Virus record (IMG/VR): IMGVR_UViG_3300001748_000007
Span: 1 to 41,011 of that record
Source: a virus
Length of the DNA stretch: 41,011 bases
Reading direction: 5' to 3' (one strand)
Position numbers and translations under genes: made by a program. The notes under the pieces were generated by a model that saw only the letters and a list, made by a program, of their open reading frames with translations, did not search any database and was not told where the DNA came from. Positions 1,736 through 41,011 of this stretch are shown in pieces (the first letter of the stretch is position 1; every line of letters starts with the position of its first letter).

Positions 1736-1763
1736 GGTAGTGTCTCATATTCGACACTACCTG
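1736..1763 (-). other. Intergenic stem-loop between VWA and ATPase genes
   Basis: A perfect 10-bp inverted repeat (AGGTAGTGTC at 1736-1745, GACACTACCT at 1754-1763) with an 8-base loop lies in the 74-base gap between the two genes. On the minus-strand transcript it is not followed by a U-tract, so it is not a typical intrinsic terminator. It could be an RNA processing or stability element that sets the ATPase:VWA ratio, or an operator-like palindrome. Confidence 0.55.
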
Positions 1764-1782
1764 TACAATGGTATTTTTCTAT

Positions 1783-24680: not shown

Positions 24681-25435
24681 TACCAATTACTCCCTTCAGA
24701 GAACGGATTGATTTCAGTAAAGTCAATGAAACTGATATTAGAGGTTGCACCAAAGAACTCATTGTTTGCTTGATTGTCTGTTGTCTCAATTCTATATTCT
24801 TCTTGTACGATTGCAAATCCATTTTCAAAGACAAGACGATCTCCTACTTCTGTAAGCAGTTCAAGACCTTCTTTAACACCTGAGTAAGTATCTTCAATCG
24901 CATCAATATCTGCGATGCCAGTGTCGATAATTTCGTGACTGTATTCAAAGAGTTCAAGTGTGAGATCGTAGGTTTGCAAACTTCCCATCTGATAGAAGAT
25001 TGCTTCGTGCTCGACAAACTTAACCTCAAAGATTTTACCATTGAGTGGGAAGTAGATAAGATCGCCTTCTGACGGACGTGCTACACCTTCTGCCTCATCA
25101 ACTGGAGTGGTATCTTCAACTGCGAGTTCTTCGCCAAAGCGACGACGCGAAACTGTAAGAACCATCTCATCACGAATCTCCAATCCAAACTTAGAAAGGA
25201 AGTCGCCATCCCCTTGGAATCCATCCACAGACTTGATGTACATCTCCACAGGATAGGCATTTTCAAACTTCGACAACACATCCTCATGAAATAGATTATC
25301 TTCTTTCACGAGTGTGCGTGGCAAGTAGAACACTTCAATACCGTAAATCTTGATCGATTCAATGATCAGATTCTCAATAAGGTTCTGCTCTTGCGTGAAC
25401 GCATAGTTGTTGAAGTAGAGGTTTGTTGTTGGCAT
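24680..25435 (-). CDS. gp14: Neck protein gp14
   Basis: This 251-residue protein belongs to the head-completion/neck complex with gp13; T4 gp14 is 256 residues. Recognisable parts are the N-terminal NLYFNNYAFTQEQNLIENLIIESIKIYG and the YLPRTLV segment (about 37-43), and the C-terminal ending NISFIDFTEINPFSEGSNW typical of gp14. It starts 4 bases after the gene 13 stop and ends with a TAATG overlap into gene 15. Confidence 0.93.
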   Translation of the reverse strand: MPTTNLYFNNYAFTQEQNLIENLIIESIKIYGIEVFYLPRTLVKEDNLFHEDVLSKFENAYPVEMYIKSVDGFQGDGDFLSKFGLEIRDEMVLTVSRRRFGEELAVEDTTPVDEAEGVARPSEGDLIYFPLNGKIFEVKFVEHEAIFYQMGSLQTYDLTLELFEYSHEIIDTGIADIDAIEDTYSGVKEGLELLTEVGDRLVFENGFAIVQEEYRIETTDNQANNEFFGATSNISFIDFTEINPFSEGSNW

Positions 25436-25439: not shown

Positions 25440-26183
25440 TTACCCAATCATGTCCATCGCGGGCATTGAGTAGTTGTTTACAACTTCTTCTTCTAACCGC
25501 TTAATTTCCTCATCTGCTTCGTTCCAGATTTGCTGTCCATTGAACTGCACACCACCGGGCAATTGCATCCCTTCAAACTTCTTCATGTTCTCGCCCCATT
25601 GACGTTTGAATAGTTGTGTAGTATATTGTCGTAACCAACGATCACCCCAAACAGATGTGTAGGTGTCTGGGTCAAGTACACGATATGCTTCGATGATGAG
25701 ATACTCACCGACAACAGTGCGAGTGTTCCAATCCATGTCGATAAACAAACGATCCATGTGACGATTGAAACGCAGTGGTTGCTTACCAACGAAAATCTCT
25801 TCCATCAGTGCTACTCGACGCATAGACTCAGTATAGTTTACAAACTGAGCATGCGACCAATCGTAGATTTCGTTGAGTGTAATCTGATAGCGTAGGTTGA
25901 ATAGATTATTAGCATTGAGTCCAGTGCCAATAGGAAAGACGTTAATAACACCATTGATGTTAGTAGGAATATCAATGTAACCGTTTGTCTGATCTGATGA
26001 TGTGACTTGGTGCTTGTAGTAAGTTCTTTCCACACCATCATAGTGATAGTCGCGATAGAATTCAAGAGCATCGTCTATGCGATCTTGCATCTGATCTTCA
26101 TCGATGTTGATCTCAATAACCGGATGCCCAAGTCTACGGAGACAGTAGTTTTTTAAATCTGTTCTGCTTCTTGGATTTGCCAT
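25440..26183 (-). CDS. gp13: Neck protein gp13
   Basis: This 247-residue protein is the head-completion protein that sits under the portal. The opening MANPRSRTDLKNYCLRRLGHPV, then INIDEDQMQDRIDDALEFYRDYHYDG, is characteristic of gp13. It is shorter than the T4 protein (309), as in other marine phages. It leads the polycistronic series 13-14-15-16-17 and has a perfect late box about 30 bases upstream, separated from the ATG by a small hairpin. Confidence 0.93.
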   Translation of the reverse strand: MANPRSRTDLKNYCLRRLGHPVIEINIDEDQMQDRIDDALEFYRDYHYDGVERTYYKHQVTSSDQTNGYIDIPTNINGVINVFPIGTGLNANNLFNLRYQITLNEIYDWSHAQFVNYTESMRRVALMEEIFVGKQPLRFNRHMDRLFIDMDWNTRTVVGEYLIIEAYRVLDPDTYTSVWGDRWLRQYTTQLFKRQWGENMKKFEGMQLPGGVQFNGQQIWNEADEEIKRLEEEVVNNYSMPAMDMIG

Positions 26184-26214: not shown

Positions 26215-26222
26215 TATTTATA
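26215..26222 (-). promoter_or_regulatory. Late promoter before gene 13
   Basis: Perfect TATAAATAG on the minus strand in the 49-base gap between the last propeller gene of the array and gene 13. Confidence 0.82.
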
Positions 26223-26232: not shown

Positions 26233-27207
26233 TTAGTCTTGTTGACCTGCCGCAGCAAATCTTGTTTGCGATAAATCACCGACATCAGTCGCATTGGCAT
26301 CTGTTGCGAAAGGAAACTTGTCGATTGTGTTGACAAGAAAACCGCCAGAAGCGTACCCATTGTCGGATGAAGATTGACCTGCCGCATCTTGTCTTGCTTG
26401 TGTTAAATCACCAACATCAGTCGCATTGGCATCTGACGCAAATGGAAACTTGTCGATTGTGTTGACTGCAGGTGGTGCAAAACCGCCAGAACTGTATCCA
26501 TCTGTCGATGAAGATTGACCTTGCACCGCCGATCTTGCCTGTGTTAAATCGGCAACGTCAATCGAATTGGCATCGGTTGCAAATGGAAACTTTTCGATTG
26601 TGTTGACTATTGATGGTGTACCACCGCCAGAAAAGTACCCATTGTCGGATGAAGATTGACCTGCAAGATATGCTTTTGCTACTGTCATATCGCCAACATC
26701 TGTCGCATTGGCATCACTTGCAAAAGGAAACTTGTCGATTGTGATAACTCGTGATGGTGTAGCACCGCCAGAGGTGTATCCATTATCGAATGAGGATTGA
26801 CCTGCGCCACCATCTCTTGCTTGTGTTAAATCACCAACGTCAGTCGCATTGGCATCAGACGCAAAAGGAAACTTGTCGATTGTGGTGACTCGTCCCGGTG
26901 CCGAGGGTGACTCACCGCCAGAACTGTATCCATTGTCGGTTGAAGATTGACCTGACGCATAATATCTTGCTTGTGTCAAATCACCAACGTCAGTCGCATT
27001 GGCATCTGATGCAAATGGAAACTTGTCGATTGTGTTGACTCGTGGTGGTGAACCACCACCAGAAGCATACCCCGACACAGTGCCTGACATAGGAGGAGGA
27101 GGTGGTTCTGCATCCACCAAAACAAATCCATCAGGAACCGACACTTTTTCTAGAGAAGAAGTTAAATCGTCATCGAATACTGTTGTACCGCTTACTTTTA
27201 TTGCCAT
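26233..27207 (-). CDS. Six-bladed kelch-like propeller protein 1 (putative adhesin)
   Basis: This 324-residue protein has an N-terminal module of about 36 residues (MAIKVSGTTVFDDDL...), a polyproline linker (EPPPPPMSG) and six repeats of about 45 residues, ending GQQD. Each repeat reads roughly GQSSxDNGYxSGG, a variable Pro-rich loop, VNTIDKFPFA, then DANATDVGDLTQAR and a 4-residue variable loop. The GG doublet and spacing resemble kelch beta-propeller repeats, so I infer a six-bladed disc. Blade 4 is the most degenerate (IEKFPFATDANSIDVADL), and blade 6 has the shortest loop. Unlike genes 2 to 4 it ends with CAACAAGACTAA, as does the last gene of the other array. A virion receptor-binding role is inferred from position between fibre and neck genes and from the variation pattern. 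Confidence 0.85.
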   Translation of the reverse strand: MAIKVSGTTVFDDDLTSSLEKVSVPDGFVLVDAEPPPPPMSGTVSGYASGGGSPPRVNTIDKFPFASDANATDVGDLTQARYYASGQSSTDNGYSSGGESPSAPGRVTTIDKFPFASDANATDVGDLTQARDGGAGQSSFDNGYTSGGATPSRVITIDKFPFASDANATDVGDMTVAKAYLAGQSSSDNGYFSGGGTPSIVNTIEKFPFATDANSIDVADLTQARSAVQGQSSSTDGYSSGGFAPPAVNTIDKFPFASDANATDVGDLTQARQDAAGQSSSDNGYASGGFLVNTIDKFPFATDANATDVGDLSQTRFAAAGQQD

Positions 27208-27212
27208 ATCTC

Positions 27213-28196
27213 TTAATCCTGTTGACCTGCCGCGGAACTTCTTGCTACTGTCAAATCACCGACATCTGTCGCATTGGCATCAGTTGCAAAAGGAAACTTG
27301 TCGATTGTGTTGACACTTGGTGGTGCATCACCGCCAGAAGTATATCCATCTGTCGATGAAGATTGACCTGTCGCAACATCTCTTGTTTGTGATAAATCAC
27401 CGACATCAGTCGCATTAGCATCAGATGCAAACGGAAACTTGTCGATTGTGTTGACTCGTCCTGGTGGTGCTGCTCCGCCAGAGGCGTATCCATTATCGGT
27501 TGAAGATTGACCTGCGGAACCACTTCTTGCCACTGTTAAATTACCAACGTCAGTCGCATTAGCATCAGATGCGAAAGGAAACTTGTCGATTGTGTTGACT
27601 CGTCCTGTTGGTGCAAAACCGCCAGAACTGTATCCATCTGTCTCTGAAGATTGACCTACCACATAATTTCTTATTTGTGTTAAATCGCCAACGTCAGTCG
27701 CATTGGCATCACTTGCAAAAGGAAACTTGTCGATTGTGTTGACTCGTGGTGCTGCATAACCGCCAGAACTGTATCCATCTGTCTCTGAAGATTGACTCGC
27801 CAAATTATTTCTTGCTTGTGTTAAATCACCAACGTCAGTCGCATTGGCATCTGTTGCGAAAGGAAACTTGTCGATTGTGGTGACTCGTGGTGGTGCATCA
27901 CCGCCAGAAGTGTATCCATTGTCGGTTGAAGATTGACCTGCCGACTGCCTTCTTGCTTGTGATAAATCACCAACATCTGTCGCATTGGCATCTGATGCAA
28001 ATGGAAACTTGTCGATTACGTTGGATGTTGGATTACCGCCAGAAGTATATCCTGACACAGTGCCTGACATAGGAGGAGATGGTGGTACAAGAAACTCTGG
28101 AGCAAGCAACTCCGCGTCAAACTCTAAACCTTCACCTGTAACAGAGATTGTTTGATCATCCCATTCTATTTTGTCTTTATAGATTTTTATTGACAT
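27213..28196 (-). CDS. Six-bladed kelch-like propeller protein 2 (putative adhesin)
   Basis: This 327-residue paralogue has the class A N-terminal module (MSIKIYKDKIEWDDQTISVT then FDAELLAPEF), a PPSPPMSG linker and six blades. It is separated from gene 1 by only 5 bases (GAGAT), so the ribosome binding site of gene 1 lies in the junction. Blade loop sequences include RQSA, NNLA, NYVV, SGSA, DVAT and SSAA after the conserved TQAR-type motif. The second of these and its flanks are nearly identical to the second in gene 3 at DNA level. The function is inferred as for its relatives. Confidence 0.85.
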   Translation of the reverse strand: MSIKIYKDKIEWDDQTISVTGEGLEFDAELLAPEFLVPPSPPMSGTVSGYTSGGNPTSNVIDKFPFASDANATDVGDLSQARRQSAGQSSTDNGYTSGGDAPPRVTTIDKFPFATDANATDVGDLTQARNNLASQSSETDGYSSGGYAAPRVNTIDKFPFASDANATDVGDLTQIRNYVVGQSSETDGYSSGGFAPTGRVNTIDKFPFASDANATDVGNLTVARSGSAGQSSTDNGYASGGAAPPGRVNTIDKFPFASDANATDVGDLSQTRDVATGQSSSTDGYTSGGDAPPSVNTIDKFPFATDANATDVGDLTVARSSAAGQQD

Positions 28197-28201
28197 ATCT
28201 C

Positions 28202-29176
28202 TTAATCCTGTTGACCTGCCGGAGCACTTCTTGCTTGTGTTAAATCACCGACATCAGTCGCATTGGCATCTGTCGCGAATGGGAACTTGTCGATTGTGGT
28301 GGCAAATGGTGGTGCAAAACCACCAGAAGTGTATCCATTTTCGGATGAAGATTGACCTGCCACACTACTTCTTATTTGTGATAAATCACCAACGTCAGTC
28401 GCATTGGCATCAGTTGCGAAAGGAAACTTGTCGATTGTGTTGACTCGTGTTGGTGTAGCACCGCCAGAACTGTACCCATTGTCGGATGAAGATTGACCTG
28501 ATAGGTTACTTCTTGCTTGTGTTAAATCGGCAACGTCAGTCGCATTAGCATCTGTTGCGAAAGGAAACTTGTCGATTACGTTGACTATTGGTGGTGTACC
28601 GCCAGAAGTATATCCATCTGTCGATGAAGATTGACCTGCCGCACTATATCTTCCTTGTGTTAAATCACCGACATCGGTTGCATTGGCATCGGTTGCAAAT
28701 GGAAACTTATCGATTATGTTGCCTATTGCCGGTGCTGCACCGCCAGAACTGTATCCATCTGTCGATGAAGATTGACCCGCCAAATTATTTCTTGCTTGTG
28801 TTAAATCACCAACGTCAGTCGCGTTGGCATCTGATGCAAAAGGAAACTTGTCGATTGTGTTGACAAATGGTGGTGCATTACCGCCAGAACTGTATCCATC
28901 TGTCTCTGAAGATTGACCTGCCTGTTGTGCTCTTGCTTGTGTCAAATCACCAACATCTGTCGCATTGGCATCTGTCGCGAATGGGAACTTGTCGATTGTG
29001 GTGGCAAATGGTGTTGCACCGCCAGAAGTGTATCCCGACACAGTGCCTGACATAGGAGGTGCAGGGGTGATTCTTCCTAATGTTCTAATATCGCCATCAA
29101 ACTCAAAACCATTGTCAGTAACAGTTAAGGTATAGTCATCGAATTCAATTTTTTCTGGGTAGATTTTTATTGCCAT
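28202..29176 (-). CDS. Six-bladed kelch-like propeller protein 3 (putative adhesin)
   Basis: This 324-residue paralogue has a class A N-terminus (MAIKIYPEKIEFDDYTLTVT then FEFDGDI), a TPAPPMSG linker and six blades. Its 4-residue loops read AQQA, NNLA, YSAA, SNLS, SSVA and SAPA. The Pro-rich loops vary from TPPIV to AAPAIGN. Blades 1 and 6 share the same FATTIDK strand. It is one of three consecutive class A genes with identical 5-base junctions, which points to tandem duplication. Confidence 0.85.
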   Translation of the reverse strand: MAIKIYPEKIEFDDYTLTVTDNGFEFDGDIRTLGRITPAPPMSGTVSGYTSGGATPFATTIDKFPFATDANATDVGDLTQARAQQAGQSSETDGYSSGGNAPPFVNTIDKFPFASDANATDVGDLTQARNNLAGQSSSTDGYSSGGAAPAIGNIIDKFPFATDANATDVGDLTQGRYSAAGQSSSTDGYTSGGTPPIVNVIDKFPFATDANATDVADLTQARSNLSGQSSSDNGYSSGGATPTRVNTIDKFPFATDANATDVGDLSQIRSSVAGQSSSENGYTSGGFAPPFATTIDKFPFATDANATDVGDLTQARSAPAGQQD

Positions 29177-29181
29177 ATCTC

Positions 29182-30171
29182 TTAATCCTGTTGACCTGCC
29201 AACTCCCTTCTTGCTTGTGTCAAATCACCAACATCTGTCGCATTGGCGTCTGATGCGAAAGGAAACTTGTCGATTGTGTTGACATTTGGTGGTGCATAAC
29301 CGCCAGAAGTGTATCCATTGTCGGTTGAAGATTGACCTACTGTCAACCTTCTTGTTTGTGTTAAATCACCAACGTCAGTCGCATTGGCATCTGATGCGAA
29401 AGGAAACTTGTCGATTGTGGTGACTGCACTAGATGGTGCATAACCGCCAGAACTGTATCCATTTTCGAGCGATTGTTGACCTGCCGCACTATTTCTTGCT
29501 TGTGTTAAATCCCCAACATCAGTCGCATTGGCATCTGTTGCAAAAGGAAACTTGTCGATTGTATTGACTCGTCCCGGTGCCTCACCGCCAGAACTGTATC
29601 CATTGTCGGTTGAAGATTGACCTGCCATCAACCTTCTTGCTTGTGTCAAATCACCGACATCAGTCGCGTTTGCGTCAGTTGCAAATGGAAACTTGTCGAT
29701 TGTGGTCCTTGGTGTGGGTGTATTACCGCCAGAAGTGTATCCATTGTCAGATGAAGATTGACCTGCCGAACCTTCTCTTGCTTGTGTTAAATCACCGACA
29801 TCTGTCGCATTGGCATCTGTCGCGAATGGGAACTTATCGATTGTGTTGCTATGTGGTGGTGCAAAACCGGCAGAAGTGTATCCATCTGTCGATGAAGATT
29901 GACCTGCCATCAACCTTCTTGCTTGTGTTAAATCACCGACATCAGTCGCATTGGCATCTGTCGCAAAAGGGAACTTGTCGATTGTGTTGACTGTTGATGG
30001 TGAAGCACCGCCAGAAGTGTATCCAGACACAGTACCTGACGCAGGAGGTGGTGGTAAAGAATAAGATAGTGCTGTGATAGTGCCATCAAACTCGAAACGA
30101 GATTCTGCGGAAGAATATGTGAGCGTATAATCTCCTAACTCAATTCTATCATTGTAGACGCGAATTGCCAC
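29182..30171 (-). CDS. Six-bladed kelch-like propeller protein 4 (putative adhesin)
   Basis: This 329-residue paralogue is the first gene of the four-gene array and starts with GTG at 30171, one base after the stop of a 42-residue ORF. It has a class A N-terminus (MAIRVYNDRIELGDYTLTYS then FEFDGTI) and an SLPPPPASG linker. The linker keeps the Pro run but has Ala where the others have Met. Blades 1 and 3 carry the same loop RLMA, and blade 5 has RLTV, evidence of duplication within the gene. One blade has SAGFAPP instead of SGG. A late box 160 bases upstream may drive the whole array. Confidence 0.85.
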   Translation of the reverse strand: MAIRVYNDRIELGDYTLTYSSAESRFEFDGTITALSYSLPPPPASGTVSGYTSGGASPSTVNTIDKFPFATDANATDVGDLTQARRLMAGQSSSTDGYTSAGFAPPHSNTIDKFPFATDANATDVGDLTQAREGSAGQSSSDNGYTSGGNTPTPRTTIDKFPFATDANATDVGDLTQARRLMAGQSSTDNGYSSGGEAPGRVNTIDKFPFATDANATDVGDLTQARNSAAGQQSLENGYSSGGYAPSSAVTTIDKFPFASDANATDVGDLTQTRRLTVGQSSTDNGYTSGGYAPPNVNTIDKFPFASDANATDVGDLTQARRELAGQQD

Positions 30172-30172
30172 T

Positions 30173-30301
30173 TTATAAGTCCTCTATGATTTCCTTTAAA
30201 ATCAAAAATGCTTCCATATCTTCCATTTTAAATTTCATCAACACTTCAATAAGTTCATTTAGATCTAGTTCTTCAATTTTGTTTGCAATTTCGATTTCCA
30301 C
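30173..30301 (-). CDS. Small 42-residue helical protein
   Basis: This short ORF fills the 134-base gap between the small oxygenase gene and the propeller array. It starts with GTG at 30301, 4 bases after the oxygenase stop, with AAGAGAG upstream, and ends 1 base before the next gene's GTG. The product, VEIEIANKIEELDLNELIEV then LMKFKMEDMEAFLILKEIIEDL, is an acidic, leucine/isoleucine-rich helical peptide with heptad-like spacing. It could be a small chaperone or coiled-coil partner for the adjacent fibre proteins. It is supported by the tight packing and by a late promoter 28 bases upstream; no family is recognised. Confidence 0.62.
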   Translation of the reverse strand: MEIEIANKIEELDLNELIEVLMKFKMEDMEAFLILKEIIEDL

Positions 30302-30305
30302 AGTT

Positions 30306-30866
30306 TTAATCTCTCTTGAATATGTTACTATTTATAATAATACGAGGGTTTAGTGCAGGTGTTGTGCTTGCGTGTAATATTGAACCATCAAACAAAACAA
30401 CTTGTCCTCGTCGAGGGGCAATGCGATCAATAATCTTGTTGCCATCAAACATCAGCGTATCTCCGTCTACATTATTCACATAATAGATCATCACCCAATG
30501 AGGAGACTTATAATCGTTATGTGGCACATCCACACGATCTTTTTCCGACAATCCATATTGTGGCAGAGTCAATCTAGCACGACATCTGAAAATATCTGAC
30601 AAGTCCAAGTTCATTTGCAGTTTGTCAAATGCTTCTAAAAAAATAGGACAAATCAAGTCGTACTTACTATCTCGAATCGTCTTTTGTTCATTGTTGTTAA
30701 AGTGTTTGTTCAGAAAGAAATTGTATGAAAACCCAGAGGTATTCCTACCGTTTGGGTTGTTTCCTACACTAATCTCTGGTACGAAAGTCCATTTTAACTT
30801 AGCACACTCTTCAAATACGTAACTAGAATATTTATCACCGATTACATTATCTATTACCTTAATCAT
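30306..30866 (-). CDS. 2OG-Fe(II) oxygenase (prolyl-4-hydroxylase-like)
   Basis: This 186-residue protein is a single-domain iron and 2-oxoglutarate dependent dioxygenase. The metal triad is visible: HND (His116, Asp118) and His165 in SILHASTTP, and Arg175 in NPRIIINSN would bind 2-oxoglutarate. The spacing and the DGNKIIDRIAPRRGQVVLFDG stretch before the distal His match the prolyl-4-hydroxylase-like group common in marine T4-like phages. Its substrate is unknown; neighbouring fibre proteins are candidates. It overlaps the methyltransferase stop by ATGA, and its 3' end contains a late promoter box. Confidence 0.85.
   Translation of the reverse strand: MIKVIDNVIGDKYSSYVFEECAKLKWTFVPEISVGNNPNGRNTSGFSYNFFLNKHFNNNEQKTIRDSKYDLICPIFLEAFDKLQMNLDLSDIFRCRARLTLPQYGLSEKDRVDVPHNDYKSPHWVMIYYVNNVDGDTLMFDGNKIIDRIAPRRGQVVLFDGSILHASTTPALNPRIIINSNIFKRD
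30329..30336 (-). promoter_or_regulatory. Late promoter inside the 3' end of the oxygenase gene
   Basis: Perfect TATAAATAG on the minus strand, 28 bases upstream of the GTG of the 42-residue ORF. It would drive that ORF and the four-gene propeller array. Confidence 0.7.
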
Positions 30867-31600
30867 AACTTTAAATTCACTCTCGGATGCGGAAATATAT
30901 CTATCGGAGTCATTCGTATCATTGCCGTACTGTTCTGTGCTCGGTCTTTATTTTCTATGATATGCTCTACACTGAACCGATGACTCGAAACAATCTGTTG
31001 CAACTCGTGTGGGTTGCTCGACAACTCCAACATTGACAAAGGCACTTGGTTCATGTTAAACAGTTCCACAGTCTTTTCAAGCATACTCATACTGGAAAAG
31101 TTAGTCGAGGCACTGTCAATAAACAGAACAGAATCTGCACTCATCTTTGGCAGATACTGCACCAACAACTTCACGATGTCATACACAGAGTGCGCGAAAT
31201 CAGAAAACAAAATGTCAATAGTGTCTTCAACATCCACCACATCAATTCGTTTATTAACAAACTGAATTTGATTCTCAAACTCAAAAGTCTTTATGAGACT
31301 GTTGATATACGTTGCATAGTCTTCACGGTAGTACGAACTAAATCTCGGTGCTACTTGAGAAATTCTCTGCCACTCTGAACCATCATCAACTGTAATGAAG
31401 GAACCAAACCCGTTTTCTTCCATTGCCAGTGCTGACCACAACATTGCTGTGCCAACACCAGTTCCTAGTTCAACCACGGTGTTTGGTCTTTTCATTTTAA
31501 TCAACGAGTACAGAAAAACTGAAAAGTCCTCTGTACCGTAGATTGTTCCGATAGAATCGGTCAGTTGTTTTATATGTGAGATTTTCTCATATAACTTCAT
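30863..31600 (-). CDS. Class I SAM-dependent methyltransferase
   Basis: This 245-residue protein has the AdoMet-binding motif VVELGTGVGTAMLW (about residues 42-55), an acidic strand end FITVDDGSEW (about 69-78) and a DILFSDFAHS motif (about 129-138), in the order of a Rossmann-type class I methyltransferase. I see no DNA methyltransferase catalytic motif. The target is therefore more likely a protein, sugar or small molecule. Location inside the oxygenase operon between propeller arrays suggests a virion-modifying role, but this is inference. It is coupled by ATGA overlaps on both sides. Confidence 0.82.
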   Translation of the reverse strand: MKLYEKISHIKQLTDSIGTIYGTEDFSVFLYSLIKMKRPNTVVELGTGVGTAMLWSALAMEENGFGSFITVDDGSEWQRISQVAPRFSSYYREDYATYINSLIKTFEFENQIQFVNKRIDVVDVEDTIDILFSDFAHSVYDIVKLLVQYLPKMSADSVLFIDSASTNFSSMSMLEKTVELFNMNQVPLSMLELSSNPHELQQIVSSHRFSVEHIIENKDRAQNSTAMIRMTPIDIFPHPRVNLKL

Positions 31601-31932
31601 GAATTTTGTGAAACGAAATTATCGTACCACTGTTCTGCCATTGTCGTGACTTCTGCATCAGTCATTGCTTCTGGTTCAGCATCTGGGTTTTCCATATCCA
31701 TTTCGTTCATCATAGGATTGGTTGCATGCATTCCAAGTGTACGAGTCACGAACTGTTCTTTGGTTAAAGTTTTGATTGAGTCTGGTACATAATAATCTCT
31801 TTCGTCATCGATCCAACCAACATAGGTATGATCTGCTGAATTGTACCAATGCCCTCGATCTCCGATAAAACCGGGAATTTCTGCTTTGCTATTACCATTT
31901 ATTTTTTGAAGCATGTATTCAACTACTGCCAT
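31597..31932 (-). CDS. Hypothetical protein of the tail-fibre region
   Basis: This 111-residue protein has an aromatic N-terminal half (PGFIGDRGHWYNSADHTYVGW, then IDDERDYYVP) and an acidic Met-rich C-terminal part (NPMMNEMDMENPDAEPEAMTDAEV). Similar small proteins occur near fibre genes in marine T4-like phages as far as I recall, without known function. Its start shares a base with the upstream stop (TAATG) and its stop overlaps the methyltransferase start (ATGA). It could be a fibre-associated or assembly protein; no motif proves this. Confidence 0.75.
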   Translation of the reverse strand: MAVVEYMLQKINGNSKAEIPGFIGDRGHWYNSADHTYVGWIDDERDYYVPDSIKTLTKEQFVTRTLGMHATNPMMNEMDMENPDAEPEAMTDAEVTTMAEQWYDNFVSQNS

Positions 31933-32906
31933 TACTCTTCCTCCTGACTACTTTTTGGTAGTGCTAATTTGCTGTTATAAGTGATTTCTTCTGTTGGGTC
32001 TGGATCATAACCAAGAAGTTCCATTCTCTTCACATCAACCTTGTGCACAGTAATTAATTCATCTGCTAATTTATCTACGAATTCAAAAAGACCAGAACTG
32101 TCCCAAGACTCTTGGGATGCTTCTGACTCAACATACTTTTTCAAGATGTGTTGGAGTTTACCTACATTAACTCCAATTTGTTCTACGTATTCTTGCTCGC
32201 CTTTTGAGATGTGCCCTGCTTGGCGTATATCACGAATACATTGTACTAAACTTCTTTTCATATGAGTTTTAGATTCAAGCAACTCGACATCTTGCTCACT
32301 GAACTCACTGACTTTCTCTTTGAGATCTTCGTAAATTTCTTGAAGGGCAAGCACATCTTTCATTGCACCTTCAATGTAAGTCATGGACTCAACTGCTTTT
32401 TCTTTCAGTTCTGCGAGTTTGATTTTAAGTTCAACCTCTCTCCAATAGTCCATATCAGATGTGTCTTGCAACTCGTCTTGAAGTTTGCAAATCTTTGCTT
32501 CGTTCTTGACGTGTCTCCACTTTGCCTCGGACAGTGCAGTTTTCTTCTTAGTCATTTCCGCAGAAATCTGACGCATATTTTTGATAGGACTGTGGTATGA
32601 AAAGTTGATGTGCTTCCAAGTCCATTGTGAATGAGAGTGATTCCAGATATTTTCCAACTGTCCTACATTTTTCATTGCTGCATCTACAAGTTGAGTGTTC
32701 TCACTCAAAGTTCTTCCACCAAAACTTGGTAGGTTAGTTGTAGTGCCTCGTCCAAACACAGTGGCAAGAGGGATCTTCAACTTTTCTGGATCTGCCACCA
32801 CAATATCATTGTTTGTACGAATGTCTTCAAATACCGAAATAGTATTCATTTTAGACTCTTCTAACTCTTGTGCAATCTGCACTTCTTCTTTCACTTTTGC
32901 TGTCAT
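31932..32906 (-). CDS. Hypothetical coiled-coil protein of the tail-fibre region
   Basis: This 324-residue protein begins at ATG 32906, preceded by AGGAGAT and 1 base after the upstream stop; a longer in-frame start at 32951 lies inside the upstream gene and is less likely. A conserved-looking part near 65-130 contains GGRTLSENTQLVDAAMKNVG, then WNHSHSQWTWKHINFSYHSP. Residues 130-245 form a long coiled coil of Lys/Glu-rich helices. The C-terminus is acidic. I recall similar proteins next to fibres in marine myoviruses, but with no function assigned. An intragenic late box lies 100 bases upstream. Confidence 0.78.
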   Translation of the reverse strand: MTAKVKEEVQIAQELEESKMNTISVFEDIRTNNDIVVADPEKLKIPLATVFGRGTTTNLPSFGGRTLSENTQLVDAAMKNVGQLENIWNHSHSQWTWKHINFSYHSPIKNMRQISAEMTKKKTALSEAKWRHVKNEAKICKLQDELQDTSDMDYWREVELKIKLAELKEKAVESMTYIEGAMKDVLALQEIYEDLKEKVSEFSEQDVELLESKTHMKRSLVQCIRDIRQAGHISKGEQEYVEQIGVNVGKLQHILKKYVESEASQESWDSSGLFEFVDKLADELITVHKVDVKRMELLGYDPDPTEEITYNSKLALPKSSQEEE

Positions 32907-32907
32907 A

Positions 32908-34185
32908 TTATCTAAATCTCCTAGAACCATGAACCCAGATGACAAGAGCATATCTCTCGCCTTTTGTAATATTGGTCACTTTATGTGGCATATAACTTGG
33001 AAAACTATTTATAGATCCTTGCTCACGAGTTGCCTCAAAAATGTTGCCGTGATCGTTGACGACTAAATCGCATTCTTCATATTCATTAGGATCAGTCAGT
33101 TGAACGGTCACACTAATCTTTCTTGTTGCTACTGGACCGCGACCTGCATCTACGTGCCAATCGTAATGCCCCTTGACTTCATCATCACTTGTATAATGAA
33201 TCAATTGCAAACCGTGGACAATACCTGAAATCTCATAGTCGTAATGTTCTTGATTAAGAACTGAAATAATCTTACAAAGTTTTTCGAAAATCCAACGGTT
33301 TTCTTCGTCGTTTTCCAATACGAAAATATTTGCCTTACGAATTTCTTGTTCAAACTTACCTTTGTGATCACCACCTACTGTTGCATCTGCGTGGTATAAA
33401 TCTTTTGTCAGATTAACAATTCGGTCGCACTCTTCTTTGGTAAACATCAGTTCTGGCATATGTTTTGAGTTAATGCCAATGTATCCGGGTAAAGTATCAT
33501 CACTGCTTGGAATATACACTGAGTCATAATGAGGTCTTGAAACCTTTACTTTTTTTTCAGTTATTTTAGGAGTTTCATCAAGTTGTTGTTGTTCTTGATG
33601 ATGAACCACATTAGGAGTGGGTCGTTTGCCTCGTGTGCGACTATCACCTGCTTCATCTGCATAAGGACCATCTAGATCGACATAATGTAAGAATACTTGT
33701 ACATGCCACTTGCCCTTGAACTCGTTTCTCCAATGCAATAACTCACACCCTTTATAGACTGCGAGTTCACCTACGTCCAACTGAACTGGAACTTGATGTT
33801 TTTCACCATTTGAGAAGAAGATGGGGTATACTGACTTGCCATCAAAACCAAGAGTCATCGTAGCAGAAATTTCACACGCAGGACGATCTTTGTGTTTTTT
33901 CAGCACTTCGCCGGGACGATAAATGCGAGCATACGCATAAGTGGGAGCAAGAAGACGACCGATTTGATTACCGATTGGAACTGCAAACTCGTGTAGCAGT
34001 TCTTCCATATGTGCATCACCATACACAGCATCCGATTTAGGGCATTGGTCATCACGAACTAATTTGTTTGAATCGTATAGACTAAACATATGATGTGTTA
34101 AAAAGTTTGCACGATCTTGTGTAATCGCATTCGAAAGAACAACATATCCATTGTCTTCAAAATAGTCTTTAATTTCACTTCCCAT
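32908..34185 (-). CDS. Two-domain 2OG-Fe(II) oxygenase
   Basis: This 425-residue protein appears to hold two dioxygenase modules. The N-terminal one (about 1-175) has His98/Asp100 in KKHKDRPAC and His151 in ELLHWRNEF. The C-terminal one (about 235-425) has His344/Asp346 in DWHVDAG, His401 in YMPHKVTNI, and Arg411 as the probable 2-oxoglutarate ligand. A polar linker with Gln runs (residues 178-215) separates them. The C-terminal module looks like a prolyl-4-hydroxylase/PiuC-type domain. Two active sites in one chain could hydroxylate two positions of one target. Its start shares a base with the 187-residue gene's stop (TAATG). Confidence 0.83.
   Translation of the reverse strand: MGSEIKDYFEDNGYVVLSNAITQDRANFLTHHMFSLYDSNKLVRDDQCPKSDAVYGDAHMEELLHEFAVPIGNQIGRLLAPTYAYARIYRPGEVLKKHKDRPACEISATMTLGFDGKSVYPIFFSNGEKHQVPVQLDVGELAVYKGCELLHWRNEFKGKWHVQVFLHYVDLDGPYADEAGDSRTRGKRPTPNVVHHQEQQQLDETPKITEKKVKVSRPHYDSVYIPSSDDTLPGYIGINSKHMPELMFTKEECDRIVNLTKDLYHADATVGGDHKGKFEQEIRKANIFVLENDEENRWIFEKLCKIISVLNQEHYDYEISGIVHGLQLIHYTSDDEVKGHYDWHVDAGRGPVATRKISVTVQLTDPNEYEECDLVVNDHGNIFEATREQGSINSFPSYMPHKVTNITKGERYALVIWVHGSRRFR
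33006..33013 (-). promoter_or_regulatory. Intragenic late promoter box
   Basis: Perfect TATAAATAG on the minus strand inside the 3' end of the two-domain oxygenase gene, about 100 bases upstream of the 324-residue coiled-coil gene. It may be fortuitous, but the 9-base match equals those used before structural genes. Confidence 0.42.
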
Positions 34186-34748
34186 TATCTAACTCCAATA
34201 TTAAAACTAATACTAATTCTATCTTCATCACTTTGATTCATTTCCACATAATGCTCCATCCAACTAGGAAACATGATACACGCAAGATTTTCCGGTTCTA
34301 TCGAATAGTTCTTTTCTCGAATCACTTTCATCTCTGAACGAATCATGGGATTCACAAGAATCAATCGTCCAGAATCTGGTGGAATCTTCAAATAAAACAC
34401 CCCCGAGAGTTCGCCTTCGTGCGTGTGTGCCATATTCATATTGTATTTATGATTAACATTTGCCCACATAGACTGAACATAAACTTCACGTTTGGTATAC
34501 GATTCTAATATTTCACTTGACAACTTTCTGATAATTGATGCAAACTCACGAAAGATGCCGTGAGAGTGGAGGTTGTCATCAGACTGCCATCCCCCCATAT
34601 TACTTTTCACTTGGGATGGCATCGTCTCTTTCATTTTCATAATTGTGTCAATGTAGTCAATTGCGTGATATTGCTCTGTATTTAGTATAAACCCCCAAAT
34701 CGGAGATTGAAACACATTATGTTGACTTGGATGTTCTTTGCCGTACAT
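34185..34748 (-). CDS. 2OG-Fe(II) oxygenase (TIGR02466-like)
   Basis: This 187-residue protein fits a phage/marine group of putative 2OG-Fe(II) oxygenases. The pattern is VNHKYNMNMAHTHEGELSG, with His108/His110, then VFYLKIPP, FPSWMEHYVEM (His166) and DRISISFN (Arg177). The conserved beta-jelly-roll spacing between the first His cluster and the distal His supports this. The substrate is unknown. It leads the seven-gene coupled operon between the two propeller arrays and has the CTAAATAG late box 37 bases upstream of its ATG. Confidence 0.82.
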   Translation of the reverse strand: MYGKEHPSQHNVFQSPIWGFILNTEQYHAIDYIDTIMKMKETMPSQVKSNMGGWQSDDNLHSHGIFREFASIIRKLSSEILESYTKREVYVQSMWANVNHKYNMNMAHTHEGELSGVFYLKIPPDSGRLILVNPMIRSEMKVIREKNYSIEPENLACIMFPSWMEHYVEMNQSDEDRISISFNIGVR

Positions 34749-34784
34749 TATATTTTCACCTTACCATTTTCATAAAAGAATACA

Positions 34785-34792
34785 CTATTTAG
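34785..34792 (-). promoter_or_regulatory. Late promoter variant CTAAATAG before the oxygenase operon
   Basis: CTAAATAG on the minus strand in the 60-base gap between the two-gene propeller array and the 187-residue oxygenase gene. No terminator is visible in this gap, so read-through from the array is also possible. Confidence 0.55.
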
Positions 34793-34808
34793 TTCTGAAA
34801 ATTAAATA

Positions 34809-35786
34809 TTAGTCTTGTTGACCTACCCCGCCAAGAAAACTTCTTCCTTGTGTCAAATCACCAACGTCAGTCGCATTGGCATCGGTTGCAAATGGAAACT
34901 TGTCGATTACGGTTTGTCTTGGAGCAGCACCACCAGAAGTGTATCCATTGTCGGATGAGGATTGACCTGTCAAATAATTTCCTGCTATTGTTATATCACC
35001 AACATCAGTCGCATTGGCATCGGTTGCAAATGGAAACTTGTCGATTGTGTTGACATTTGGTGGTGTAGCACCGCCAGAAGTGTATCCATTGTCGGATGAA
35101 GATTGACCTGCCGGAGCACTTCTTGCTTGTGTCAAATCACCGACATCTGTCGCATTGGCATCTGATGCAAAAGGAAACTTGTCGATTGTGGTGGTAAGTG
35201 ATGGTGATCTACCGCCAGAAGTGTATCCATTGTCGGATGAAGATTGACCTGTCGCAGAATATCTTGCTTGTGATAAATCACCAACATCAGTCGCGTTGGC
35301 ATCAGACGCAAATGGAAACTTGTCGATTGTGTTGACTGCTGGTGGTGCAAAACCGCCAGAACTGTATCCATTGTCGTATGAAGATTGACCTGCCGAACCA
35401 AATCTTGCTTGTGTTAAATCGCCAACATCTGTCGCATTGGCATCTGTTGCAAAAGGAAACTTGTCGATTGTGTTGCGACCTGAGAAAGGTGCATAACCGC
35501 CAGAAGTGTATCCATTGTCGGATGAGGATTGACCTGCTGGGCGCGTTCTTGCTTGTGTCAAATCACCAACGTCAGTCGCATTGGCATCTGATGCAAATGG
35601 AAACTTGTCGATTACGTTGGATGTTGGTGGTGCAGAACCGCCAGAAGTGTATCCCGACACAGTTCCTGACATAGGAGGAGGATCTAACAAATGAATGAAC
35701 CCTGTGTCGGTTTCCATAGTGACACTAACAAAGTTTCCTTCTTTGTCGTCGTTTACTGCATCTGTACCATTTATTTTATATGCCAT
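34809..35786 (-). CDS. Six-bladed kelch-like propeller protein 5 (putative adhesin)
   Basis: This 325-residue paralogue has a class B N-terminal module (MAYKINGTDAVNDDKEGN...), a DPPPMSG linker and six blades. Loops after TQAR-type motifs are TRPA, FGSA, YSAT, SAPA, NYLT and an expanded SFLGGV. One blade has DITIAGN in place of DLTQARN. The blade beginning GYSSGGFAPPAVNTIDK is the same as one in gene 1. It ends CAACAAGACTAA, like gene 1, marking the last gene of its array. Confidence 0.85.
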   Translation of the reverse strand: MAYKINGTDAVNDDKEGNFVSVTMETDTGFIHLLDPPPMSGTVSGYTSGGSAPPTSNVIDKFPFASDANATDVGDLTQARTRPAGQSSSDNGYTSGGYAPFSGRNTIDKFPFATDANATDVGDLTQARFGSAGQSSYDNGYSSGGFAPPAVNTIDKFPFASDANATDVGDLSQARYSATGQSSSDNGYTSGGRSPSLTTTIDKFPFASDANATDVGDLTQARSAPAGQSSSDNGYTSGGATPPNVNTIDKFPFATDANATDVGDITIAGNYLTGQSSSDNGYTSGGAAPRQTVIDKFPFATDANATDVGDLTQGRSFLGGVGQQD

Positions 35787-35791
35787 ATCTC

Positions 35792-36760
35792 TTAATCCTG
35801 TTGACCTGCCGGACCACTTCTTGCTTGTGTTAAATCACCGACATCGGTTGCATTAGCATCGGTTGCGAAAGGAAACTTGTCGATTGTGGTGACATTTGGT
35901 GGTGCATTACCGCCAGAAGCATACCCATCTGTCGATGAAGATTGCCCTGCCGTAGCACTTCTTACTTGTGTCAAATCACCAACGTCAGTCGCATTGGCAT
36001 CTGATGCAAATGGAAACTTGTCGATTGTGGTGACTCGTGGTGGTGCAAAACCGCCAGAAGCATACCCATCTGTCGATGAAGATTGACCACCTGAGAGACT
36101 ACTTCTTGCTTGTGTCAAATCACCAACATCAGTCGCATTGGCATCGGTTGCAAATGGAAACTTGTCGATTACGTTGCTTTGTGGTGGTCGAAATCCGCCA
36201 GAAGCGTACCCATTTTCGGATGAAGATTGACCTGCAGGTGATAGTCTTGTTTGTGTTAAATCACCGACATCAGTCGCATTGGCATCTGTTGCAAAAGGAA
36301 ACTTGTCGATTGTGTTTAGTGTTGGTGGTGCATAACCACCAGAACTGTATCCATTTTCGGATGAAGATTGTCCTGCCGCACCATATCTTCCTTGTGTTAA
36401 ATCACCAACATCAGTCGCATTAGCATCAGTTGCGAAAGGAAACTTGTCGATTGTGGTGACAAATGGTGGACGTCCACCAGAAGCGTATCCATTGTCGGAT
36501 GAGGACTGACCTGCCGGAATATATCTTCCTTGTGTTAAATCACCAACATCAGTCGCATTAGCATCTGTTGCAAAAGGAAACTTGTCGATTGTGTTGACAC
36601 CCGAAAATGTTCCGCCAGAATTATACCCCGACACAGTGCCTGACATAGGAGGAGGAACAAGCACCTCCAACGGATTTCCTGCCGCAATAGTAATCGTATC
36701 TTGACCGACAAGTTCTCTACTGTCCGATACTACATTAGTACCACCAACTTTAATTGCCAT
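35792..36760 (-). CDS. Six-bladed kelch-like propeller protein 6 (putative adhesin)
   Basis: This 322-residue paralogue has a class B N-terminus (MAIKVGGTNVVSDSRELVG...), a VPPPMSG linker and six blades. Loops read YIPA, YGAA, LSPA, SSLSG, SATA and SGPA. Its ATG at 36760 overlaps the end of the long S74 fibre gene by 11 bases, so the array is coupled to fibre translation. The same 5-base junction (GAGAT) joins it to gene 5. Confidence 0.85.
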   Translation of the reverse strand: MAIKVGGTNVVSDSRELVGQDTITIAAGNPLEVLVPPPMSGTVSGYNSGGTFSGVNTIDKFPFATDANATDVGDLTQGRYIPAGQSSSDNGYASGGRPPFVTTIDKFPFATDANATDVGDLTQGRYGAAGQSSSENGYSSGGYAPPTLNTIDKFPFATDANATDVGDLTQTRLSPAGQSSSENGYASGGFRPPQSNVIDKFPFATDANATDVGDLTQARSSLSGGQSSSTDGYASGGFAPPRVTTIDKFPFASDANATDVGDLTQVRSATAGQSSSTDGYASGGNAPPNVTTIDKFPFATDANATDVGDLTQARSGPAGQQD

Positions 36761-37034
36761 TCATCACTTCCTTTTCAAGTGCGTCCAAACGAGTTTGTAG
36801 TTCTTTGTTGCTCTCAATCAAAAATGCAATCAGTCCTAAGTAGTTCACAGTTTTGTCGCCTGAGTTGCTTTCTTTAACCAACTCAGGAAGTACTTGTTCA
36901 AGTTCTTGTGCAATAACACCAAAGGTATTCTTACCAGTTTCTTTCCAAGTGAATGAACGTCCTTGTAATTGACTTACTACATCAGATGCATTTTCGATAG
37001 ACTCAATGTTCTCTTTGTACTTCTCATCAGACAA
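36750..37034 (-). other. Peptidase_S74 domain region of the fibre gene
   Basis: This is the coding segment for the C-terminal autocleaved chaperone. It has SDEKYKEN, then FTWKETGKNTFGVIAQELEQ and a terminal coiled coil (FLIESNKELQTRLDALEKEV), the normal order for this domain. The propeller array starts inside its last codons. Confidence 0.85.
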
Positions 37035-40000
37035 AGAGTTGAAGTCTGTAGCATTTAGTGTACCAGAAGATGGGTTGAAATACAACTTTGATGCGTTAAT
37101 AAATGCGTTGTCTTGTGTGCCTGATGTTTCTGCTGTGAAGATCACATTGTAATCTACATCATCAGATTTGCTTTCAACGGTAGCACCTGCTGATACAGTA
37201 GACCAAGTGAATGTACCGTCTCCATCGGATTCAAGGTATTGACCTGCTGAACCATTGCCAGAAACATTTAGTTCTGCCGCACCGACTGAGTTATCAGTGA
37301 TGGTTGCCGCATTGACTGTTGACAGTGTAGCAAGTGAACCTAATCCAAGATTTGAACGAGCAGTCGATGCATTGTCGAATGTATTATCACAAGTACGACT
37401 ATCACTGAGTCGAGCATCGTTACCTTGACAAGCAGTGCCTGAACTAGTTCCATAGTCAACTGACAATGTATGAGCAATCCCTTCACCCGAAGTTGCCCCC
37501 GATGAAGTTAAACCAGTTCCACCAGTAATCGTTGCAACATAGTTACCAGTGGTATGTGTACCAAGCGTTACTGAGTTGTTTTGCTGAGTTACTGCGATAG
37601 ATACTGAGTTGGATGAGAAGGCAGTTGCGCCACCTGCAACAGCACCAGTAATCGCAACGGTAGCAGTTGCACCTAACTTTTGACCAAGGTTAGTCGCAAC
37701 AGTAGTTGCAAAGTTAGCATCATCGCCAAGTGCCGCAGCAAGTTCGTTCAGCGTATCCAATGCGGCAGGGGCAGAGTCTACAATACCTGCGACTGCGTTA
37801 TCAACATAAGTCTTATTTGCCGCATCTGTACCAGATGATACTGTGTCTACGCCTTGAATACGACCAGTACCACCCAATACGATGTCGCCACCAGAGACTG
37901 TGAGATCGCCTGTGAGTGTTACATCATTTGGAAGTCCAATCGTGACTGTTGCGTTTTCTGACCCAGAACCAGAAACTTCGATTTCGTTGGTAGTGCCAGA
38001 AATGCCTGATACATAGTTACCAGTGGTGTCTGTAGCAAGTGCAATTTGATTTGTGGTGTTGAACTGACCAATTGCAATTTCTGAAACTAATTTACGTTTC
38101 TGAGAACCATTGTCAAGATAAACCAGTTCATCTTCAGCACCCACGATGTCAGCAGTACCGTCTGTCAATTCAGACAAATCTACATCGACTGTTATGCTTC
38201 CTGATGAGGTAACAGGACCACCAGATACATCGATTAAATTGCCTGCTGTAAGATTTACTGATGTAACAGTACCAGTTGTGGTTGAGAATCCAGCATCATT
38301 GTTAAATCCAGAGATGTTAATGTTGCCTTTCGTCAACTTCTTTTGCGCGTTTGCGTCATCAACAACAACAAAGAAATCACCATCGCCATCTGAGGTAGAA
38401 GTAGTCAATTCGGATAAATCTACATTAACCGCATCAGCAGTTACATCGATAAGAGTTCCTGCTCCAACATTTACTGTTGTTGTTCCACTTGATGTAACCG
38501 TACCACCACCAGTGAGACCATCCCCCGCGCCTACGGTGTGAGAGGTTACTGTACCAGTTGTAGTAGAGAATCCCGAATCGTTATTAAAGATACTTAATCC
38601 AATCTCACTTGCTGCTTTGCGACGATCAGCACCTGCGTCGAGTACGATGAATTCATCAGTGCCTACCATTGTTTGGGTCATGTCAGTTAATTCAGATAAG
38701 TCAACTGAAATTGTTCCGCTTGAATATGCAATACCAGTTCCACCAGAAAGGTGATCATCTACATCGCTATCTGTATATCCCGCAGGAACATCTTTAAATG
38801 TGAATGTTCCATCACCATCTGATGCCAAATACTGATCCACCGAACCATTACCAGTAACCTTCAGTTCTGCCGCACCAACTACATTTGATGCAATATCTGT
38901 AGAGATTGATACTGCATTGGATGAGAAAGCAGTCGCACTTGCAGTGACATCTCCAGTTAAAGTGACTGTTGCAGTTGCACCCAACTTTTGTCCGATGTTT
39001 GTAGAAACGGTTGTTGCAAAGTTAGCATCATCGCCAAGTGCCGCGGCAAGTTCGTTCAGCGTATCCAATGCGGCAGGAGCAGAATCTACAACACCCGCGA
39101 CTGCATTGTCAACATAAGTCTTGTTTGCGGCATCTGTGCCAGAAGATACTGTATCAATACCTTGAATGCGACCAGTACCACCAAGCGTAATGTCTCCACC
39201 AGAGACTGTGAGATCGCCTGTGAGTGTTACGTCATTCGGCAACCCAATTGTGACTCCCGCAGTTTCGGAACCTGATCCAGAGACCTCGACTTCGTTAGTA
39301 GTGCCAGAGATGGTTGCAATGTAATTACCTGTTGTATCCGTGCCAAGTGCAATTTGATTTGTGGTGTTGAACTGACCAATTGCAATTTCTGAAACTAATT
39401 TGCGTTTCTGAGAACCATTGTCGAGATAGACTAATTCGTCTTCACCACCCACAATAGCATCAGTACCATCTGTCAATTCAGATAAGTCTACATTGACTGT
39501 TATACTGCCTGATGAAGTAATAGGACCACCAGATACATCAATCAGATTACCTGCTGTAAGATTTACTGATGTAACAGTACCAGTTGTAGTAGAGAATCCC
39601 GAATCGTTATTAAAGATACTTAATCCAATCTCGCTTGCTGCTTTTCGTCTATCAGCACCTGCGTCGAGTACGATAAACTCATCAGTACCAACCATAGTGG
39701 CAGTCATGTCTGTCAATTCACTTAAATCGACAGAAAGTGTGTGTGCTATGCCTTCGCCAGAAGTTGCTCCAGTTGATGCAATACCAGTTCCACCAGTAAT
39801 TGTTCCGACATAGTTACCAGTGGTATGTGTACCAAGCGTTACTGAGTTGTTCTGCTGAGTTACTGCAATGGAAACCGCATTAGAAGAAAATGCTGTTGCA
39901 CCACCTGCAACTGCTCCAGTAATCTCCACAGTTGCAGTTGCACCTAAACGAGCATCGGCAAGTGCTTGTGTATTCGCGACAGTCATACGGTTGTCTAATG

Positions 40001-41011
40001 CATCTTGTAAACCATCAACATTAGAGATGACATGATTGTGTGAATCATCTGCAACTGTTGCTATGATTGTAATGTCTTGACTACCATCAAAATCGGCACT
40101 ACCAGATAAATCGCCACCCAAAGCAATCTCACGAGCAGTAGATAATGCTGCAGCAGTGTTCGCTTGACCTTCAATTGTTGCATTGATTGACCCAGTAACA
40201 GTAATATCACCTGTGACAGAAACATCACCACTGAAATCACCATCGTCTGCATACAATTTACGCCAACGAACTGATGTAGTTCCTAAATCTTCCGCGCTAT
40301 CTGTATTAGGGATTAGATCACCAGAAACTAATTGCTCCGATCCTAATGTCCAACGATCATTTCCTTCATCATAAATGAAAGAAACATCTGAGTCCGAACC
40401 ACGGTTGACAATAATTCCTGCGTCTTCGCTTGCAGGCGTTGCTCCATTCAAGTCTGAGTTTAGAGTGATCTTAGTATTAGCAATATTAACTTCTTCAGAG
40501 TTAACGGTTGTGGTTGTTCCTGATACGATAAGATTTCCAGATACAACTACGTTTTCTCCGACACTTAATTGTCCTGCTACAGTGACATCATCCGGTAATC
40601 CAATGGTAACAGAAGCACCTTCTGATCCAGAACCAGAAACTTCAACTTCATTAGCAGTACCAGAGATTGTCGCAACATAGTTACCAGTAGTGTGGGTTCC
40701 GAGGTCAACAGAGTTGTTCTGTTGAGTAACAGCGATTGAAACCGTATTACCAGAAAAGGCAGTCGGACCACCTGCAACATCACCAGTAATCTCCACAGTT
40801 GCAGTTGCACCTAAACGAGCATTGACCAGTGCTTGAGTATTTGCTACAGTCATACGATTATCGAGGCGTGTAACTGTATTTGCTTCGTGGTTGGCAACAA
40901 TAGCACGGATAGCAGTGTTTGTTGAACCAATACTAGTTAATGCATTTGTAATACGAGTGTTTGCAGTGATAATAGAACTATCAACGTTTGCCAAGCGAGT
41001 TACTGTGTTTG
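36750..41011 (-). CDS. Long tail fibre with C-terminal S74 chaperone, 5' end outside window
   Basis: The frame is open to the right edge, so the N-terminus is missing; at least 1,419 residues are present. The body is a Gly/Ser/Thr/Ala/Val-rich beta-repeat protein with recurring units such as VTGDITVTGS, NKTYVDNAVAG, ALDTLNELAAALGDD and GTVTSVNLTAG, typical of phage fibre shafts. The last 94 residues, from LSDEKYKENI to the end, are a peptidase_S74 intramolecular chaperone. These domains trimerise the fibre and then cut themselves off at the Ser of the LSD motif, with a Lys in the dyad. Large segments are duplicated internally. It is probably the main long or side fibre, with the propeller proteins as possible accessory tips. 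Confidence 0.9.
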   Translation of the reverse strand, partial: NTVTRLANVDSSIITANTRITNALTSIGSTNTAIRAIVANHEANTVTRLDNRMTVANTQALVNARLGATATVEITGDVAGGPTAFSGNTVSIAVTQQNNSVDLGTHTTGNYVATISGTANEVEVSGSGSEGASVTIGLPDDVTVAGQLSVGENVVVSGNLIVSGTTTTVNSEEVNIANTKITLNSDLNGATPASEDAGIIVNRGSDSDVSFIYDEGNDRWTLGSEQLVSGDLIPNTDSAEDLGTTSVRWRKLYADDGDFSGDVSVTGDITVTGSINATIEGQANTAAALSTAREIALGGDLSGSADFDGSQDITIIATVADDSHNHVISNVDGLQDALDNRMTVANTQALADARLGATATVEITGAVAGGATAFSSNAVSIAVTQQNNSVTLGTHTTGNYVGTITGGTGIASTGATSGEGIAHTLSVDLSELTDMTATMVGTDEFIVLDAGADRRKAASEIGLSIFNNDSGFSTTTGTVTSVNLTAGNLIDVSGGPITSSGSITVNVDLSELTDGTDAIVGGEDELVYLDNGSQKRKLVSEIAIGQFNTTNQIALGTDTTGNYIATISGTTNEVEVSGSGSETAGVTIGLPNDVTLTGDLTVSGGDITLGGTGRIQGIDTVSSGTDAANKTYVDNAVAGVVDSAPAALDTLNELAAALGDDANFATTVSTNIGQKLGATATVTLTGDVTASATAFSSNAVSISTDIASNVVGAAELKVTGNGSVDQYLASDGDGTFTFKDVPAGYTDSDVDDHLSGGTGIAYSSGTISVDLSELTDMTQTMVGTDEFIVLDAGADRRKAASEIGLSIFNNDSGFSTTTGTVTSHTVGAGDGLTGGGTVTSSGTTTVNVGAGTLIDVTADAVNVDLSELTTSTSDGDGDFFVVVDDANAQKKLTKGNINISGFNNDAGFSTTTGTVTSVNLTAGNLIDVSGGPVTSSGSITVDVDLSELTDGTADIVGAEDELVYLDNGSQKRKLVSEIAIGQFNTTNQIALATDTTGNYVSGISGTTNEIEVSGSGSENATVTIGLPNDVTLTGDLTVSGGDIVLGGTGRIQGVDTVSSGTDAANKTYVDNAVAGIVDSAPAALDTLNELAAALGDDANFATTVATNLGQKLGATATVAITGAVAGGATAFSSNSVSIAVTQQNNSVTLGTHTTGNYVATITGGTGLTSSGATSGEGIAHTLSVDYGTSSGTACQGNDARLSDSRTCDNTFDNASTARSNLGLGSLATLSTVNAATITDNSVGAAELNVSGNGSAGQYLESDGDGTFTWSTVSAGATVESKSDDVDYNVIFTAETSGTQDNAFINASKLYFNPSSGTLNATDFNSLSDEKYKENIESIENASDVVSQLQGRSFTWKETGKNTFGVIAQELEQVLPELVKESNSGDKTVNYLGLIAFLIESNKELQTRLDALEKEVMNGN
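37660..39590 (-). repeat. Internal direct duplication in the long tail fibre
   Basis: About 600 bases (near 37660-38280) recur with high similarity 1,309 bases away (near 38970-39590). They encode the same succession of NKTYVDNAVAG, LNELAAALGDDANFATTV and ELVYLDNGSQKRKLVSEIAI units. Further partial copies lie at 38540-38700 versus 39580-39700, and at 37435-37690 versus 39730-39990. Confidence 0.8.

Follow-up and report, generated by a model that had tools for sequence, protein, structure and literature searches.

T4-like phages carry fibre adhesins (gp37/gp38 and Gly-rich proteins) near the long tail fibre, with modular exchange of their tips and hypervariable recognition loops. Such phage adhesins decide which bacteria get infected. 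Kelch proteins are known from phages as well, and one of them, CBB_552, has been reported from mass spectrometry of phage CBB virions (PMC5259590), so that proteins of the kind described here have a precedent. Kelch repeats are also known to drop out of short-read assemblies, the frequency of kelch-repeat phage proteins in long-read data being 9x that in assembled data (PMC9238414). Here we analysed a stretch of 41,011 nucleotides (nt) that constitutes the entire 41-kb IMG/VR virus record IMGVR_UViG_3300001748_000007 (hereafter the window), belongs to a T4-like phage and carries six repeat genes of a type annotated as hypothetical. We consider it probable (roughly 0.74) that these genes encode adhesin heads borne by the tail, each on an anchor of its own, and that recombination and selection have diversified them.

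Organisation of the repeat genes

The ORF (open reading frame) list contains six intact propeller genes on the minus strand, arranged in one group of two and one of four, all in the same orientation and each with its own start codon. Numbered in the order of transcription, they are P1 (35792..36760, 322 amino acids (aa)), P2 (34809..35786, 325 aa), P3 (29182..30171, 329 aa, GTG start), P4 (28202..29176, 324 aa), P5 (27213..28196, 327 aa) and P6 (26233..27207, 324 aa). Each protein consists of an N-module of 44-49 aa, which ends in a proline-rich segment followed by SGTVS, and of six repeats, if split at the GYxSGG motif; the N-modules of P1, P2 and P6 belong to class 1 and those of P3, P4 and P5 to class 2. 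The 36 repeats are 41-50 residues long, typically about 47, and the tandem repeat is detectable in the DNA too. The original prediction, made from the sequence letters, of six genes of 322-329 residues with six repeats apiece was therefore borne out by ORFs and motif splitting. The polyproline linker that it described is present in the window genes, but is a local trait, as the joiner elsewhere in the family is usually FQG-[ST]-[VI]-S. All four gene junctions (27208-27212, 28197-28201, 29177-29181 and 35787-35791) read GGCAGGTCAACAGGATTAAGAGATATG, and this shared sequence could possibly serve as a site of whole-gene recombination.

Fold of the repeat domain

An AlphaFold2 model of P4, based on an alignment of 120 family members, reached a mean predicted local distance difference test score (pLDDT) of 95.4 and a predicted template modelling score (pTM) of 0.87. 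It shows six blades of four strands each, a small beta N-module and a linker of low confidence. A Foldseek search of this model against the PDB returned designed kelch proteins of the SAKe6 series and the Keap1, KLHL3 and KLHL12 kelch domains as top matches, and the six-bladed kelch structures of the Keap1, KLHL and SAKe type aligned with a template modelling score to the target of 0.80-0.93, a root-mean-square deviation of 1.7-2.7 Å and 15-21% identity. The model thus supports P4 as a closed six-bladed kelch-like propeller.

The Gly-Gly doublet that ends strand B (GYxSGG) had been described as kelch-like, and it holds throughout the array, with the second Gly in all 36 blades and the first in 35. 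The Tyr (strand C) and Trp (strand D) typical of kelch are not present in these blades, in which strand C reads IDKFPF, with a Phe, and strand D reads DVGDL. The proposed comparison with kelch families came out positive at the level of structure but not of sequence: the propeller proteins matched no Pfam kelch family at E<=10, and a PDB sequence search with the family profile gave no match at E<=1. Matches to the Pfam families THDPS_M, DUF4907 and DNase_NucA_NucB were rejected as spurious, as they cover only short pieces of the repeats. THDPS_M exceeded its curated cut-off in five of the six propeller proteins over stretches of 10-40 residues, which constitutes a trap for automatic annotation.

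Variation and homogenisation of the blades

In propellers, the BC and DA loops lie on a common face. In Keap1, these loops make up the ligand pocket (PMC4668279). According to sequence entropy, the hypervariable positions of the 36 window blades, and likewise of 1092 family blades, are in the BC loop (after GYxSGG) and the DA loop (after LTQAR), while the blade core is nearly invariant. The AB loop varies moderately and the CD loop is conserved. Among the window blades, the core had a ratio of nonsynonymous to synonymous polymorphism (pN/pS) of 0.10; the DA loop reached 1.43, and the BC loop 1.8 at one end and 3.5 at the other. Such values are rough between paralogous blades because of high divergence and recombination.

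Core codon identity of the window blades was 0.746 within a gene, 0.753 for blades at matching positions in different genes and 0.754 elsewhere. Between genomes it was 0.47, and codon usage would predict 0.43. Since identity is equal within and between genes and far higher than between genomes, the blades of the array form one homogenised pool. Furthermore, three pairs of blades had identical DA-loop 9-mers, versus 0.41 expected (P 0.014).

No reverse transcriptase (RVT_1) was found in 16 records, including contigs of 201, 183 and 155 kb, with the window phage represented by a 102-kb contig only, and the same search recovered RVT_1 in control genomes. Adenine-only targeting was not seen in the loop bases. 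Diversification by a retroelement was rejected on these two grounds.

Anchors and heads

The N-modules of P1-P6 are mutually 23-50% identical. A class-1 N-module also begins the S74 tail-fibre proteins that adjoin the arrays of loci L043, L061 and L056, as well as a fibre-like protein of 2491 aa in AG-345-L05, while a search of the class-2 N-module against phages gave no match. N-regions in the family are 23-507 residues long, and collagen-like, IPT-like and fibre-like sequences can be recognised among them by eye.

Between the near-isogenic phages L043 and L061, whose nearby flanks are 92-99.6% identical, the N-modules were 82, 100 and 79% identical and the corresponding heads 58, 87 and 51%. 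In 50 cross-phage gene pairs, selected for N-modules at least 65% alike, the median identity was 78% for the N-module and 59% for the head, compared to 55% for random pairs of heads. Judged from these identities, the anchor stays while the head turns over.

The family in related phages

Our family set, drawn from 66 related loci plus 18 longer regions, comprised 189 unique complete ORFs, of which 182 have exactly six blades. This is in line with the earlier proposal that the constant blade number reflects selection on a closed disc. The disc is almost always C-terminal, with 0-2 residues following it in 178 of the 182 ORFs. Four of the seven exceptions are ORFs of Synechococcus phage S-SKS1, and the others are divergent or partial sequences in which the blade profile breaks up some blades or fails to detect them. 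The S-SKS1 exceptions look like broken frames and may represent double heads. The respective regions (L120, 3817-8352; L073, 14920-16143) contain ORFs of eight, nine and three repeats that appear to be broken pieces of longer genes, with a linker after blade six as perhaps expected for double six-blade heads.

On 14 long contigs we found 3-12 propeller genes apiece. As some contigs end within the array, these counts are minima, and expansion is a trait of the family. The comparison of copy number in related phages hence confirmed the multi-copy state but not that it is exceptional, and the idea of a near-copy family peculiar to this phage did not hold. The terminases of most other propeller-bearing contigs tested are 45-68% identical to that of the window phage, which indicates that the propeller cassette has spread among T4-like lineages. 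A cellular origin was rejected, given that only five short contigs from metagenome-assembled genomes match and that these are probably viral contamination.

In AG-345-L05 (L209, 15582-22834), two proteins (955 and 968 aa) that contain numerous kelch-like GYxxGG repeats adjoin tail-fibre genes and are probably multi-disc relatives. In L038 (8600-10867; G009), a propeller follows an N-region of 471 residues with a Gly-rich part. The best terminase match there is only 24% identical, and the head may therefore have reached phages outside the T4-like group.

Genomic setting

Directly upstream of P1 and overlapping it by 11 nt at the P1 start lies a gene (36750..40994, minus strand) for a long tail-fibre-like protein of 1414 aa, which has PHROG tail/tail-fibre matches and a C-terminal Peptidase_S74 chaperone domain (PF13884, 5.3e-15). 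The two propeller groups are separated by a cassette (30306..34748, minus strand) of three 2-oxoglutarate (2OG)-Fe(II) oxygenase-type genes, one Methyltransf_24 gene and two that match no Pfam family. It is possible that this 2OG/methyltransferase cassette modifies fibre prolines or glycans. A cassette protein of 425 aa appears to hold two 2OG-Fe(II) oxygenase-type domains, and a small unlisted reading frame of about 40 codons (30172-30305) directly precedes P3.

The array is directly followed by a putative T4 neck-type gene (25440..26183, minus strand) without a Pfam match, which we used as the syntenic marker, and next by a gene matching Pfam T4_neck-protein (24680-25435). Matches to the T4-type late promoter, TATAAATA, are located on the minus strand about 160 nt upstream of P3 (30329..30336) and between P6 and the neck-type gene (26215..26222); the window contains eight such matches versus 0.76 expected. 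At some distance from the array (581-3990), a pair of genes encodes an AAA ATPase and a VWA-like protein that resemble CobS/CobT by eye.

A sister phage, whose neck-type protein is 98% identical, has other genes in this slot, namely those for a collagen-like S74 fibre, a 2OG oxygenase, a Gly-rich adhesin-like protein and a glycosyltransferase-like protein. The 2OG oxygenase and a glycosyltransferase/2OG-like protein stand beside the collagen-like fibre (L125, 622-3050). Beyond two contigs of the same phage, none of 74 other syntenic loci has propellers near the neck-type gene, many of these contigs extending only little upstream.

Function and alternative readings

Two sets of observations favour tail-borne adhesin heads. 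The genes are located in a tail-fibre and late region, as seen from the overlap with the S74 gene, the adjoining neck genes and the late promoter motifs. Moreover, they combine a conserved putative attachment module with a variable putative recognition domain, as seen from the decoupling of anchor and head and from the N-module common to S74 fibres. Each protein would begin with a short N-terminal anchor specific to its gene, continue through a flexible linker and end in a six-bladed disc of the kelch type. The N-module would attach to the virion and the conserved core would hold the disc together, while the BC and DA loops of the six blades would form a variable surface on one face that binds a host receptor or glycan. 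Differing anchors could allow several heads to be shown at once on separate putative docking sites of the tail or its fibres, and recombination between blades and of whole heads, together with diversifying selection on the loops, would change the heads while the anchors persist. That the heads are part of the virion, are displayed at the same time and bind receptors is what we infer from the computed results.

The suggestion of a receptor-binding repertoire, either as a mixed set of tips or as a reservoir for switching, thus remains the best reading. Mixed display fits better than a switch, because the ORFs are intact, co-oriented and separately started and because the N-modules differ and are conserved independently of the head. 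The idea of a reservoir can be kept only as a mechanism of evolution, in view of the homogenised blades and turned-over heads.

Several points weigh against this interpretation. The proposed structure prediction gave a six-bladed propeller for P4 but not for P1, the model of which, with an alignment of only 60 sequences, had a pLDDT of 44. We take the latter as uninformative, as the P1 and P4 heads are 79% identical, yet it leaves a direct fold model for only one of the six proteins. The fold of the other paralogues rests on their 69-74% identity to P4. Classes 1 and 2 cover 81 of the 182 family N-modules, and the N-module has no solved homologue. The roughness of the pN/pS values counts here as well. 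Finally, close relatives without propellers at the neck-type slot indicate that the genes are dispensable to the lineage.

Among the alternatives, virion decoration survives best, though we regard it as unlikely. Here, the discs would coat the tail or capsid, in the manner of phage CBB with its whiskers, and attach loosely to glycans or particles in the environment without a specific receptor. Jumbo-phage kelch proteins are annotated as virion structural, the reported presence of CBB_552 in the virion agrees with such a role, and several copies with different anchors would suit it. However, the S74 fibre overlap, the N-module common to S74 fibres and the adhesin-like slot of the sister phage point to tail fibres, and raised pN/pS as well as head turnover on fixed anchors suggest specific recognition.

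It is improbable that the discs are intracellular or secreted effectors which bind host proteins during infection, for takeover or superinfection exclusion, as in eukaryotic E3 ligases. In favour of this, kelch discs are a classic means of binding proteins, and the variable face corresponds to the pocket of Keap1, but the genes stand among late virion genes, next to a tail fibre and close to T4 late promoter matches, the N-modules and some of the longer N-regions are similar to structural or fibre proteins of phages, and no signal or effector domain was seen in the proteins. Expression switching, with a single anchor site and silent or alternative tips swapped by a dedicated inversion or a retroelement, is quite improbable too. 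Several near-copies side by side and the three identical DA-loop 9-mer pairs would agree with it, whereas the six intact, co-oriented and separately started ORFs, the 16 records without reverse transcriptase and the differing, separately persisting N-modules speak against it. That short-read assembly of repeats made or scrambled the array is hardly credible and was rejected: the ninefold long-read excess cited above implies that kelch arrays assemble badly, but the array region recurs at 99.95-99.98% identity in two further IMG/VR contigs over 11.8 and 21.0 kb (possibly not independent samples; one of them is 102 kb long) and contains no exact repeat of at least 70 nt, which makes a collapsed or chimeric assembly unlikely, and 182 complete six-blade genes have intact frames.

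If the reading of tail-borne adhesin heads is true, a large phage group carries a multi-headed, evolving recognition set, and the array would offer a natural test case for free blade recombination in a closed repeat disc of fixed blade number. It may be speculated further, at slightly less than an even chance, that one virion shows many kelch discs at once, each on its own conserved anchor, that these represent a widespread unannotated class of host recognition, and that a genome-wide homogenised blade pool is recombined under strict selection for six blades, by which a binding face repeated six times would be diversified without a retroelement.

Comparison with known systems

A literature search on the propeller family and on phage kelch adhesins yielded only precedents of the CBB type, and as far as our searches show, a multi-head array with a common blade pool is undescribed. 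Keap1, KLHL3, KLHL12 and SAKe6 share with the phage discs six four-stranded blades, the Gly-Gly doublet ending strand B and the DA/BC ligand face. The phage discs differ from them in their near-identical blades, the lack of a conserved strand-D Trp and the N-module in place of BTB.

Proteins of phrog_19111 and phrog_27227, from S-SKS1 and its relatives, have homologous repeats and are multi-copy like the window genes; the phrog_19111 profile matched the three scanned propeller proteins over the repeats with E-values of 3.8e-31 to 9.8e-34. However, the S-SKS1 proteins are only 36% identical to the window family, are annotated as hypothetical and have three, five, eight or nine blades per ORF. 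The kelch proteins of jumbo phages (CBB_550/552/554, phiPA3, Noxifer and BcepSaruman) are kelch-type phage discs too, with 11-22% sequence identity to the window family, and the text consulted on them describes neither a homogenised array nor anchor/head exchange.

With the gp37/gp38 and Gly-rich adhesins of T4-like phages, the propellers share the kind of location near the long fibre, the modular exchange of tips and the hypervariable loops. They differ from these adhesins in their unrelated fold and in that several paralogous tips stand together, each with its own anchor.

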